This document shows, piece by piece, positions 8,258 to 53,102 of a stretch of 64,000 bases of DNA; the stretch's first letter is position 1; each line of letters starts with the position of its first letter. Source of the DNA: Nesterenkonia aurantiaca (GTDB lineage: Bacteria > Actinomycetota > Actinomycetes > Actinomycetales > Micrococcaceae); contig NZ_SOAN01000001.1 of the NCBI RefSeq assembly GCF_004364585.1, positions 1 to 64,000 on the forward strand, read 5' to 3'. The notes under the pieces were generated by a model that was not told where the DNA came from, did no database searches, and was given only the letters and a program-made list of their open reading frames with translations. The position numbers and the translations under genes were made by a program.

Positions 8258-8315
8258 CCCGCTTCGAGGCTGTGCTGCGCCGGAGGAATCGCGCGCGACG
8301 TGACCTGTGCACGGT

Positions 8316-46505: not shown

Positions 46506-46563
46506 CGCTCATGAGGGTGTTGGTGCCGCTGAAGCCCTCTGGGGATCGCTACACTCACCAACC

Positions 46564-48213
46564 ATGGACACCGCCTCTGACCGCTCTGCATCGGATCACC
46601 CCGAAGACCTCCCCGACGGCGACCTGAACCGCGCAGAACACGACCGCGGGTCCGTCCATGACACCACCGGCAACGACGACGTCGGCGGCCGGCCCGACTC
46701 CGCCGAGTCCTCGCACGATCCGAGGCTGAGCGAGCTCCTCGCCGGTTCCGCCCGCGGCGACCAGCCCTCCTTCGCCACCTTCTACGAGGCCACCTCCGAT
46801 GTGGTCTACGGGCTGGCGCTGCTGATGCACGAAGAGCCTGAGGGGGCGCAGGCCTCCATGTTGGCGGTCTACCACCAGCTCTGGGACCAGGCCGACGAGC
46901 GCGCCCAAGACCTCCGGCTGCAGTCCCAAGCCTCGGAGCTGCTCACCGACGAGCACGCCGCCGACGAACATCGCCCCGACGACGCCTACCGGCCCACCGA
47001 ATACGAGCTGGTCCTGGAATGGCTGGTCCCGCTGGCGCACCGGATCTTCGTGGAGCGCTTCCGCGAGGGCCTGGCCACACCGATCCGCCTCGCAGTGGTC
47101 CCGGCCGATGAGGGGGGCGGGATCGCCGGTCTTCCCGAGGAGATCATCGAGGACATCAGCGTGCTCTCGGACTCGCAGTCTCAGGCGCTGGCGCTGAGCT
47201 ACCTCGCCGGCGACACGCACCAGCAGGTGGGCGCCGCGGTGGGCGCAGCCGTTCCGGCCGTGAAGTCCCGACTGCGCGACGGCATGACCCGGATGCACAC
47301 CAGACGCACCACCCGCGAGGCGGAGCTCGATCCGATCCTGCGGGCCGCGGTGACGAAGAAGGACGTGGAACGCTCCGGCGCGGTGAACCGGAACTTCACC
47401 GAGGACATCGGCGCCGACGTCGAACACGGACTGCTCGTGGAGCTCGCCGAGGTCTACGCGCTGGACGCTATCGACAACCGGGAGCGCGCCGTGCTGGATG
47501 AGGCCGCCCTGACCGCCGACGAGGCCACCGCGCGCGCCTGGGACACCCGGGTGCTCTCGGCCCGGCGCACGCTCGCCGAGATCTTCACCGCCTACCCGGT
47601 GGTCCCGCCTGGCCAGCTGCTCGAGGAGGTGCTCTACAACCTCTCCGACCAGGAGGTGGGCATGGGGATGGTGGAGTCCATCTCGAGCCACACCGAGGTG
47701 GCTCCCAAGCGCGAGCCGGTGGTGAAACGTTGGATGATCGTCAGCGGGCTCGCCGTCGTCGTGCTGGCCGCGGTCCTGCTGATCTGGGGACTGACCATCG
47801 GCCAGGACGTGCAGGCCACGGCCGACGGGGACCCCGAGGCGCGGGTGGTCGACGGCATCGAGCTCGCCGAGGGCGGCACCGCACGGGCGGTGATCTCCGA
47901 GGCCGAGAATGTGGGCTATGTGGACTTCTCCGAGGTCGGGGAGCTCGAGGGCGACGCCACCTACCAGCTCTGGCTCATGCCGCGCGACGACGCCCAGCCC
48001 AGTTCGCTGGGCAACTTCACCGCCGCGGAGCTCGAGGAAGAGATCGTGACCCTGCGCAATATCGAATCGAACCGGGCGCTGCAGATCACGGTTGAACAGA
48101 TCCGCGGCGAGGAGCGCCCGATGGGCGAGACCGTCGGCGAGATCGAGATGCGTGAACGAGTCACCGACGGCCCGCAGTACGGCGGGTCCGCCGATCAGGA
48201 GGAAGAGGACTGA
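46564..48213 (+). CDS. ECF sigma factor (SigK-like) fused to an anti-sigma factor (RskA-like)
   Basis: One 549-residue reading frame joins two proteins that are normally separate. Residues 60-112 and 148-170 resemble sigma region 2 (GDQPSFATFYEATSDVVYGLAL; LEWLVPLAHRIFVERFREG), with an acidic insert of about 35 residues between them. Residues 195-245 match region 4 (LSDSQSQALALSYLAGDTHQ ... VKSRLRDGMTRM). Residues 288-355 resemble the RskA cytoplasmic domain (VELAEVYALDAIDNRERAVLDEAALT). A membrane helix lies at 389-410 and the outer RskA domain at 430-515 (YQLWLMPRDDAQPSSLGNF). The protein would hold its sigma part at the membrane. Some sigma residues are degenerate, so RNA polymerase binding is unproven. 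The stop overlaps the next gene start. Confidence 0.82.
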   Translation: MDTASDRSASDHPEDLPDGDLNRAEHDRGSVHDTTGNDDVGGRPDSAESSHDPRLSELLAGSARGDQPSFATFYEATSDVVYGLALLMHEEPEGAQASMLAVYHQLWDQADERAQDLRLQSQASELLTDEHAADEHRPDDAYRPTEYELVLEWLVPLAHRIFVERFREGLATPIRLAVVPADEGGGIAGLPEEIIEDISVLSDSQSQALALSYLAGDTHQQVGAAVGAAVPAVKSRLRDGMTRMHTRRTTREAELDPILRAAVTKKDVERSGAVNRNFTEDIGADVEHGLLVELAEVYALDAIDNRERAVLDEAALTADEATARAWDTRVLSARRTLAEIFTAYPVVPPGQLLEEVLYNLSDQEVGMGMVESISSHTEVAPKREPVVKRWMIVSGLAVVVLAAVLLIWGLTIGQDVQATADGDPEARVVDGIELAEGGTARAVISEAENVGYVDFSEVGELEGDATYQLWLMPRDDAQPSSLGNFTAAELEEEIVTLRNIESNRALQITVEQIRGEERPMGETVGEIEMRERVTDGPQYGGSADQEEED

Positions 48214-48713
48214 TGAGCGCAGAATCCACACCCACCACCGGCAGCGCTGACTTCGCGACCTGCGATCTCTACGACGCCGACGAGTCGCTGCAGTCGCTCT
48301 CGCTGCAGCTGCTGAACCTCGGCGGCCGCGCCCGATTCACCGGCCCGATCCGGACCATCCGCTGCCACCGGGACAACGGACTGGTCAAAGAGCTGCTGAA
48401 CTCCCCCGGTGACGGTGCCGTGCTCGTCGTCGACGGCTCAGGCTCGCTGGACTCGGCCCTGATCGGTGACATGATCGCCGCCTCCGCTATCGAGAACGGC
48501 TGGGCCGGAGTGGTCATCCACGGCGTGATCCGTGACCGTGAGCAGCTCGCCGAGATGGACCTCGGGGTGCGCGCGCTGGGCTCGAACCCGCGGAAGTCGG
48601 TCAAGGACGGAGCCGGCGAGGTCGATGTGCCGGTCCAGTTCGGCGGCGTCAGCTTTGTGCCCGGGGCGACCCTGTGGTCCGACGCCGACGGCGTGCTCGT
48701 CAGCAACGTCTGA
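48213..48713 (+). CDS. rraA: RraA-like (HMG aldolase / RNase E regulator family) protein
   Basis: This 166-residue RraA-fold protein has the family core DGSGSLDSALIGDMIAASAIENGW, GVVIHGVIRDREQL and LGSNPRKSVKDG; the Arg-Asp pair is the aldolase catalytic signature. Members are either 4-hydroxy-4-methyl-2-oxoglutarate aldolases or inhibitors of RNase E-type endonucleases; sequence alone does not decide. The start overlaps the sigma/anti-sigma stop by one base, so they are translated together. Just after the stop come three 16-base direct repeats. Confidence 0.9.
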   Translation: MSAESTPTTGSADFATCDLYDADESLQSLSLQLLNLGGRARFTGPIRTIRCHRDNGLVKELLNSPGDGAVLVVDGSGSLDSALIGDMIAASAIENGWAGVVIHGVIRDREQLAEMDLGVRALGSNPRKSVKDGAGEVDVPVQFGGVSFVPGATLWSDADGVLVSNV

Positions 48714-51617: not shown

Positions 51618-53102
51618 ATGGTGCCCGATATAGTCCTCAATCCACCCATCAGCCTCGGGATGATCGTGATCGGCCCGCTGCTGATCGGTGCGGTCATCCT
51701 CGGTCTGATCGGCCTGGGCGCGGTGTGGCTCTCCGGCGGCAAGAAGCAGAACCGCCGGCTTCAGGGCTTCGCGAACAACCAACAGCTCTCCGGCGGCAAG
51801 AACTCCGGAACCGAATCCGCCGAGGAGCGACGGCTGGCTGCGATGAGCCTCGAGGAGCTTCGGCGCGAGGCCGGTTCGCTGCTGATCGCGGCGGACAACG
51901 CGGTGAACTCCTCCGAACAGGAGATCCTCTTCGCCAGCGCCGCCTACGGCGATGAACAGGTCGCCCCTTTCCAGAAGGACGTGGACGAGGCGCGGGAGCA
52001 CCTGCAGGAGTCCTTCCGGATGCAGCACACGGTGGACCGCGATCCGCCGGAGGATGAGCACGAGGCCCGCGAGCTGCTGCGCAAGGTCATCGAGAACTGC
52101 CAGCGGGTCAGCGAGACCCTGGAGTCACACCGCCAGGACTTTGAGTCTCTGCGCAGCCTCGAGCTGGACCCGCGTCCGGCCCTGGAGCAGCTGCGCAGCC
52201 GGATCGGCGAGCTCCGGGACCGCCGCGGAGAGGCCGAGAAGCGTCTCCCGAACCTGCAGTCCAAATACGACGACGAGGCGCTCACCTCCTTCACCGAAGG
52301 CCTGGCCCATTCCGCGCGCAGCCTTCAGCACGCCGAAGGCTCGGCCCAGGACGCCGAGCAGGCGCTCACCGATTCCCAAGCCTCCGATGCGGTGGTCGCG
52401 ATCCACGCCGGAGAGGAAGCCGCCGGGGAGGCCGGGAAGCTGATCGAATCCCTCGAAGAGACCCAGTTGCGGCTGCGCAGCGCCGAGCAGAACCTCAGCA
52501 TCGGTCTGGACCAGACCGAGCAGGACATCGCCCAGGCGCGCGCCACCATGCAGGCAGGCCAGTCCGCGGAGCTCGCCGGCCCCATCGCCGCGGCCGAGGC
52601 CGCGGTCAAACAGGTGCGCCGGGCGCTGGACGCAGGGTCCAAGACCAACCCGCTGGAGCTGCTGAACTCGCTCGAGATCGCCCATCGCGAGCTCGACGAG
52701 CCCTTGAACGCGGTCCGGGACCAGCAGGCCCGGGACCGACGGGCCCGTGAGGTGCTGCAGACCGAGATCCTCACCGCACGCCACCAGGTGCAGTCCTCCC
52801 GGGACTACCTGCGCTCCAAGCGCAGCGGCGCCACCTCGCGCACCCGGATGGCGGAGGCCGAACGCACCCTCGCCGAGGCGGAGGCCATCGGAGACCGCGA
52901 ACCGGCCAAGGCGCTGGAGCTGGCCACCCAGGCCAAGACCCTGGCCGTGCAGGCCGCTCAGATCGCCCGCCAGGAATCGGCTGAAGACGCGCTCAGCGGC
53001 GGGGGCGGAGGCTACGGCGGCGGATTCGGCGGATTCGGCATGCCGGGCGGCTATGGCCATATGGGCGGGGGCGGCTTCGGGCGCCGTCGTCGGATGTTCT
53101 GA
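51618..53102 (+). CDS. Membrane-anchored coiled-coil protein next to pspA
   Basis: This 494-residue protein has one N-terminal helix (SLGMIVIGPLLIGAVILGLIGLGAVWL, about 12-38). A long helical coiled coil (about 65-450, rich in Ala/Glu/Gln/Arg) follows, and it ends in a Gly-rich tail (GGGGGYGGGFGGFGMPGG). The tail and position just upstream of pspA match the TPM-type Psp partners of actinobacteria. However, the outer TPM domain that normally precedes the helix is absent, since the coding begins only about 11 residues before it. It may anchor PspA at the membrane. The ATG at 51618 is the first start in frame after the divergent htrA. Confidence 0.78.
   Translation: MVPDIVLNPPISLGMIVIGPLLIGAVILGLIGLGAVWLSGGKKQNRRLQGFANNQQLSGGKNSGTESAEERRLAAMSLEELRREAGSLLIAADNAVNSSEQEILFASAAYGDEQVAPFQKDVDEAREHLQESFRMQHTVDRDPPEDEHEARELLRKVIENCQRVSETLESHRQDFESLRSLELDPRPALEQLRSRIGELRDRRGEAEKRLPNLQSKYDDEALTSFTEGLAHSARSLQHAEGSAQDAEQALTDSQASDAVVAIHAGEEAAGEAGKLIESLEETQLRLRSAEQNLSIGLDQTEQDIAQARATMQAGQSAELAGPIAAAEAAVKQVRRALDAGSKTNPLELLNSLEIAHRELDEPLNAVRDQQARDRRAREVLQTEILTARHQVQSSRDYLRSKRSGATSRTRMAEAERTLAEAEAIGDREPAKALELATQAKTLAVQAAQIARQESAEDALSGGGGGYGGGFGGFGMPGGYGHMGGGGFGRRRRMF

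Follow-up and report, generated by a model that had tools for sequence, protein, structure and literature searches.

SigK, an ECF sigma factor (ECF18/19), and its anti-sigma factor RskA are two separate chains, as in the M. tuberculosis structure 4nqw, and RskA both inhibits and activates SigK according to the available part of PMC7509140. The window that we analysed, a stretch of 64,000 nucleotides of Nesterenkonia aurantiaca DNA, contains a single gene (46564..48213, + strand) that resembles both proteins of this pair in sequence, in their order, in having a membrane helix and an outer domain, and in its chromosomal place in related genera. It differs from the pair in encoding one chain instead of two and in being without the Q-E pair, the 10-residue loop, the H-R-R motif and the SigK-type promoter.

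Fusions of a sigma factor to an anti-sigma factor have been described before. The characterised example is IutY of Pseudomonas putida (ECF243), in which a sigma factor and a membrane anti-sigma factor are in one polypeptide, as they are here, and the groups ECF48, ECF52 and ECF53 are expected to work likewise (PMC8999054, available part). IutY is an active sigma factor after proteolysis and acts in iron-starvation signalling, whereas here sigma features have been lost and the anti-sigma part is RskA. The anti-sigma part of IutY is of the FecR type. The actinobacterial fusions of ECF48, ECF52 (SCO4117) and ECF53 also have an anti-sigma-like membrane part fused C-terminally, but they are described with zinc-finger domains in place of the RskA_N and RskA_C found here, and Table 2 of that paper, on groups that carry regulatory extensions, does not include ECF18 and ECF19 (PMC8999054, available part).

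Sigma-like domains that do not act as sigma factors are also known. PhyR of the Alphaproteobacteria has such a domain, which engages an anti-sigma factor (PMC4598750, available part), a property that for our protein is suggested from sequence alone. PhyR has a receiver domain and works with a separate NepR, whereas our protein carries an anti-sigma domain within its own chain and has a predicted membrane helix, and no Pfam match to a receiver domain was found in it. A literature search returned no paper on a SigK-RskA fusion among its best matches; the 2021 ECF reclassification could mention one. Our best explanation of the fusion in the window, in which we place about as much belief as doubt, is that a sigK-rskA pair fused once, that the sigma half lost features found in all of the separate SigK proteins compared, and that this half is now likely a pseudo-sigma, a domain of sigma shape that does not drive transcription any more and is probably bound by the anti-sigma domain of its own chain.

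The gene encodes relatives of SigK and RskA in one frame. As the preliminary description had stated, an uninterrupted frame of 549 residues runs from the ATG at 46564 to the stop codon at 48211-48213. The RskA half matched Pfam RskA_N at residues 291-338 (34.5 bits, cut-off 27), within an anti-sigma domain of residues 273-372 (47380..47679), and RskA_C at residues 398-520 (47755..48123; 54.8 bits, cut-off 29.4), and hydropathy predicted one membrane helix inside residues 385-417 (47716..47814), in agreement with the RskA-like domain, membrane helix and outer domain that had been proposed. RskA_N was also found in 42 of 49 fused proteins at E 0.01.

The sigma half was recognised less evenly. 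The Pfam model of sigma region 4 gave 22.8 bits at residues 199-244, slightly below the cut-off of 24.1, the Pfam model of region 2 had no match in the window's protein, and the NCBIfam SigK model reached 76.6 bits over two stretches, far below its cut-off of 226. Both chains of 4nqw, SigK (chain A, E 1.9e-10) and RskA (chain B, E 1.3e-4), hit the single fused protein, and a profile of the fused family matched them with E values of 1e-26 and 3.9e-9, respectively. When a profile built from 14 fused proteins was compared with one built from 20 separate SigK proteins, both sigma domains were aligned (probability 99.9, E 1.3e-32). The earlier proposal of region 2-like and region 4-like segments is supported by the match to chain A and by the profile-profile comparison, which spans both domains; the HMM search of this half bore it out for region 4, below the cut-off, and not for region 2.

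The fusion is fixed in six genera of the Micrococcaceae. A protein search yielded 76 proteins (the query included; 7997 candidates scored), all of 511-658 amino acids; those whose source is named come from Nesterenkonia, except for Garicola and one Actinocorallia label. The latter is a fused protein (P0025) with 66% identity whose label, Actinocorallia glomerata, is remote from the other names and probably reflects a mislabelled genome. Among 149 genomes of the family, the fusion was present in all 31 genomes of six genera, whole in 30 and truncated in one, and both halves in one frame were found in none of the other 26 genera of the sample among the matches listed. On named contigs, single frames were found in Nesterenkonia, Citricoccus, Micrococcus (M. 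terreus, M. lylae and M. lacusdianchii), Yaniella and Enteractinococcus in a scan of the best 80 of 106 relatives, and the 20 loci translated were free of stop codons. Wider samples of 396 genomes of the order (E 1e-30) and 394 genomes of the class (E 1e-40) were searched at a depth of three candidates per genome; among the matches listed, those that cover both halves in a single open frame came only from the six genera. Two long matches (G324 and G589) each have an internal stop codon.

We rejected a frameshift or a missed stop codon as the origin of the long frame because of the 76 homologues of 511-658 amino acids and the presence of the fusion in 31 of 31 genomes. The contrary case named in the preliminary description, separate genes in relatives together with a frameshift or missing stop here, fails in that six genera share the fusion and form one clade; the claim of a genuine SigK-RskA fusion stood up to this comparison with relatives. 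The truncated protein, from a Micrococcus-type genome (G139 of group g14; L206, 1450-2496), is a natural variant of 348 amino acids that ends past the membrane helix. It retains the pseudo-sigma, the anti-sigma domain and the membrane helix, and the outer RskA_C domain is gone.

There was one fusion event, in an ancestor of several Micrococcaceae genera. Sister genera have sigK and rskA as separate, out-of-frame genes at the same chromosomal place. We compared 18 loci, that is, 20 loci of 20 kb minus L090 (few genes called) and L092 (a separate cassette from the window's own genome). trmL adjoins the gene in all 18 (16 by clustering, L078 and L082 by motif), PIG-L is near it in 14 and HtrA in 14. 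Further upstream are genes that we take, from reading their sequences, to be mnmA and a cysteine desulfurase. We conclude that there was a single event because the trees group the fused loci together. In the tree built from seven neighbour genes of 12 fused and 6 separate loci, their clade has support of 100/100, albeit with 5 rows less than half filled. The sigma-RskA tree, made with a quick method that carries a long-branch warning, also shows this clade, on a stem 1.07 changes per column long. In none of the 20 separate pairs do sigK and rskA share a reading frame, and the offset is identical in 19, indicating that fusion took more than the loss of a stop codon. The fusion linker of the window's protein (residues 251-272, 47314..47379) contains DPILRAAVT, and its alignment with the separate pairs has a gap at P257. 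We dropped the motif DP..VT as a universal mark of the fused proteins; the pattern fails in six g14 proteins and in L024.

The sigma half of the fused proteins has lost features that all separate SigK proteins have. We compared the 30 whole fused proteins with 21 separate SigK proteins, 20 from relatives and one from the window's own genome; the latter is left out of the 20 used for cysteine and contact positions and for invariant positions. The region 2.1-2.2-like segment (residues 53-112, 46720..46899) has L100-A101 where the separate proteins have the Q-E pair of region 2.2, which we take to be a contact to the beta-prime coiled coil. Residues of sigma factors that touch this coiled coil are conserved from one factor to another (PMC6411747, available part). 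Q-E is present in 21 of 21 separate SigK proteins and in 0 of 30 fused proteins, and none of the 76 homologues and none of the 20 named loci (partly overlapping the 30) has it either. Partial forms do occur: Q alone in three homologues, E alone in one named locus (L105), and D at the E position in 7 of the 30 (Yaniella-type).

The -10 specificity loop and region 2.4 were altered as well. From the F position to the W of the loop there are 10 residues in 21 of 21 separate proteins versus 17-51 in 30 of 30 fused proteins; the distance is 40 in the window's protein, where an insert at residues 113-149 (46900..47010) replaces the loop, so that the insert reported earlier in the sigma part is real. 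The next segment, a remnant of region 2.3-2.4 (residues 150-170, 47011..47073), retains W153 and has H-R-I in place of H-R-R. This second Arg, found in 21 of 21 separate proteins, is lost in 30 of 30 fused ones. Two residues of this area persist: all 30 fused proteins have the loop Trp, and 14 of them, including the protein of the window, still have the Arg of region 2.4 that lies at the -10 pocket. At E 0.01 the Pfam region 2 model detected 20 of 20 separate SigK proteins versus 2 of 49 fused proteins.

The losses are concentrated in the loop, in region 2.3-2.4 and in the sigma2-sigma4 linker, compared with RskA_C. Positions invariant in the separate proteins are retained in the fused ones at 1 of 14 in the loop and region 2.3-2.4 and at 0 of 8 in the sigma2-sigma4 linker (residues 171-196, 47074..47151), versus 9 of 21 in region 2.1-2.2, 11 of 37 in region 4, 5 of 12 in the anti-sigma domain and 15 of 23 in RskA_C. 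The region 4-like segment (residues 197-250, 47152..47313) retains its KSRLRD-type recognition helix in the window's protein and in 24 of 30 fused proteins overall; the helix is lost in all six whole g14 (Micrococcus-type) proteins. The preliminary description had noticed some degenerate positions in the sigma part; Q-E, the 10-residue loop and the second Arg of region 2.4 are lost in all 30 proteins, and these lost motifs make a loss of sigma function likely. We dropped the loss of two SigK cysteines as a sign of a dead sigma factor: they are present in 20 of 20 SigK proteins of relatives and in 0 of 30 fused proteins, but the separate SigK of the window's own genome is without both of them there, too, and a cysteine-less SigK of Nocardia is active (PMC7509140, available part).

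The same changes bear on whether the protein is still a working sigma factor. It might be a sigma factor with altered promoter preference that is tethered to the membrane, silenced by its own anti-sigma domain and freed by proteolysis of the RskA part, as IutY is. The retained region 4 helix and loop Trp keep some weight on this explanation, and it fits with purifying selection, with a gene for an M50-family site-2 protease in the window's genome (128.9 bits), with an HtrA protease gene three genes downstream, and with the precedent of IutY and the like expectation for ECF48, ECF52 and ECF53 (PMC8999054, available part). However, Q-E, the 10-residue loop and the second Arg of region 2.4 are lost in every whole fused protein and none of the eight linker invariants remains, and the region 4 helix, too, is absent from the six whole g14 proteins. 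In M. tuberculosis SigH, a single alanine at loop position F72, T76, N77 or W81 severely lowers transcription (PMC6411747, available part). Taking these points together with the missing SigK-type promoter described below, we consider a tethered working sigma factor doubtful, if still a serious candidate.

The fused genes have lost the promoter element typical of separate sigK genes. We searched for the SigK-type promoter box, which we take to be CCATCC-N15-CCGAAT. With at most one mismatch, it lies close upstream of 16 of 20 separate pairs, in 11 cases within the upstream pieces compared and in 5 a little beyond them; among the remaining pairs, one has a box with two mismatches and the three pairs of genome G004 show none, two of them (L035 and L036) with fewer than 100 upstream bases examined. 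Near the 30 fused gene starts (350 bases upstream and 150 inside), the box was found in 0 of 30, no better than in shuffled sequences: the best match had two mismatches at one locus and three or four at every other, including three at L009, where the start is doubtful and the scan was extended further. A -10-like element, TANNCT, lies 3-9 bases 5' of the start in 29 of 30 fused loci (at the window's gene TACACT, 46550..46555, + strand, 8 bases 5' of the ATG), and TATGCT or TAAGCT is present in 17 of the 19 separate loci shown. Since TANNCT occurs with fused and separate genes and the box only with the separate ones, a housekeeping-like element was retained and the SigK element was lost. Genome-wide counts of the box overlap (0-5 in the 31 fused genomes and 1-8 in 17 larger separate genomes), and for this reason we used only the box next to the gene. 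The -10-like hexamer of the window's gene is flanked by an inverted repeat, GTTGGTG (46519-46525) and CACCAAC (46556-46562), a possible operator; both arms are also present in three other Nesterenkonia upstream regions (L005-L007).

The changed sigma domain is under purifying selection. In close pairs of fused proteins, dN/dS of sigma2a was at most 0.33 in 15 of 16 pairs and 0.69 in one pair with few changes; that of sigma4 was at most 0.16 in 14 of 15 pairs with a value and 0.77 in one g14 pair; and that of the anti-sigma domain was at most 0.20 in 14 of 14 pairs with a value. The weakly conserved N-terminal tail (residues 1-52, 46564..46719) had values of 0.26-2.0 in the 12 pairs with a value. 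A decaying relic, in which the sigma half has no function, would explain the many lost motifs, the long stem branch and the one high value in region 4, but the low sigma2a values and the whole open frames in 30 of 31 genomes from six genera speak against decay, and we regard it as very improbable.

The fused proteins retain part of the surface with which sigma factors contact anti-sigma factors. We used the anti-sigma contact positions common to four solved complexes (PMC7406223, Table 2, available part) and found that 9 of 15 equivalent positions are retained by residue or class in the fused proteins. In sigma2, 5 of 10 contacts are retained by residue, F70, Y74, G83, Y103 and W107 being identical in 28-30 of 30 proteins; at position 75, which varies in separate SigK, all 30 fused proteins have an acidic residue; and three region 4 contact positions are retained by class in 24-30 of 30. 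Positions 71 (17 of 30), 79, 95, 100, 194 and 214 (numbering of the window's protein) are not retained. We see in the retained positions a moderate argument that the sigma half is clamped by the anti-sigma domain of the same chain. Counting against such a clamp are the 6 of 15 contact positions that are lost and the anti-sigma domain itself, which keeps 5 of its 12 invariant positions, and the retained contact residues may serve folding alone. Additionally, the lost Q corresponds to a common anti-sigma contact, RpoE position 51 (PMC7406223, Table 2, available part), so that its loss touches the proposed internal clamp as well.

The contact positions also bear on what region 4 does. If region 4 alone mattered, the protein would be a membrane-tethered DNA-binding regulator that uses its helix-turn-helix without RNA polymerase. 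The KSRLRD-type helix in 24 of 30 proteins and the low dN/dS of sigma4 would fit, but in the six whole g14 proteins the helix is lost, and in the truncated G139 none is visible, while the rest of the protein stays. Moreover, RpoE residues 149-151 in region 4 serve anti-sigma contact (PMC7406223, available part), and the retained region 4 residues may do the same. We think such a regulator unlikely.

The window's genome also contains a separate SigK that serves as a control within the same genome. Outside the window (G000:C1:309283-311771; L092, 8283-10771) there is a fasciclin-sigK-rskA cassette and, after it, a gene for a molybdopterin oxidoreductase; CCATCC-N15-CCGAAC boxes are present at positions 8313 and 10786 of L092. 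The SigK of this cassette retains Q-E, the short loop and R-R, and is without the two SigK cysteines. Its presence would suit an arrangement in which the anti-sigma half of the fused protein targets a separate sigma factor in trans and the pseudo-sigma serves as a displaceable plug, much as the sigma-like domain of PhyR is able to compete for an anti-sigma factor (PMC4598750, available part). However, the cassette SigK adjoins its own RskA, and a close relative of it (62-100% identity) was found in 6 of the 31 fused genomes, all of them Nesterenkonia. This distribution leaves no shared role in trans unless another sigma factor is the target, and we rejected the free SigK as a general partner of the fused protein because it fails beyond Nesterenkonia. 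An action in trans seems to us improbable.

The lost motifs, the selection and the retained contacts lead us back to a pseudo-sigma, bound by the anti-sigma domain of its own chain, as the most likely way in which the protein works. Stated in full, with slightly more doubt than belief on our part, the proposal is that the sigma factor abandoned RNA polymerase and promoter, became joined to its own anti-sigma factor and, ever since a single ancestral event, has been maintained by selection as a membrane-held protein-binding module, the sigma counterpart of a pseudokinase. The anti-sigma domain would still clamp the sigma-like domain intramolecularly, beneath the predicted membrane helix. A change at the outer RskA_C domain, via a ligand or proteolysis, would open or release the module, and the exposed sigma-like or anti-sigma surface might then bind another protein in the fashion of a sigma mimic. 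The genome encodes a site-2 protease, so that release may be proteolytic, and the released piece could act as such a mimic. Counting against the proposal are the region 4 helix, which a dead sigma factor need not keep, the loop Trp in all 30 proteins, the region 2.4 Arg in 14, D at the E position in seven and the E of L105.

Of the two roles suggested in the preliminary description, a membrane-tethered sigma factor that acts after cleavage is not backed by the sequence, given the absence of Q-E, the 10-residue loop and a SigK-type promoter in 30 of 30 and the Pfam region 2 matches in 2 of 49. A non-transcriptional regulator is the better supported of the two; with region 4 largely retained, a working sigma factor keeps some probability. 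If the pseudo-sigma proposal is true, a sigma/anti-sigma pair is able to give up its role as a transcription switch and become a membrane-bound module for binding, which is concealed when databases call these proteins 'anti-sigma factor'. The clade is a before-and-after comparison: sister genera have the separate pair at the same locus, six genera have the fusion, and several Nesterenkonia have a separate SigK cassette within the same cell as well. It allows one to test, part by part, whether a sigma factor is using a region for anti-sigma contact or for RNA polymerase.

The genes around the pair vary among the loci. In some separate loci a gene lies between trmL and sigK that we had considered as a fasciclin target; it proved to encode a methyltransferase. 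All six separate loci (L086-L089, L091 and L093) have cluster C13 (electron transfer flavoprotein alpha in L089) downstream of the pair, and none of the 12 fused loci (L074-L085) has it there. In the window, an RraA-like gene (48213-48713) overlaps the stop codon of the fused gene (TGATG); this gene (cluster C30) adjoins the fused gene in only two Nesterenkonia loci of the 12 fused loci compared. Further downstream, 51618-53102 encodes a protein of 494 amino acids without a Pfam match, and its relative in a separate-pair genome (L089) has 700 amino acids and an N-terminal TPM domain that is missing from the window's copy.
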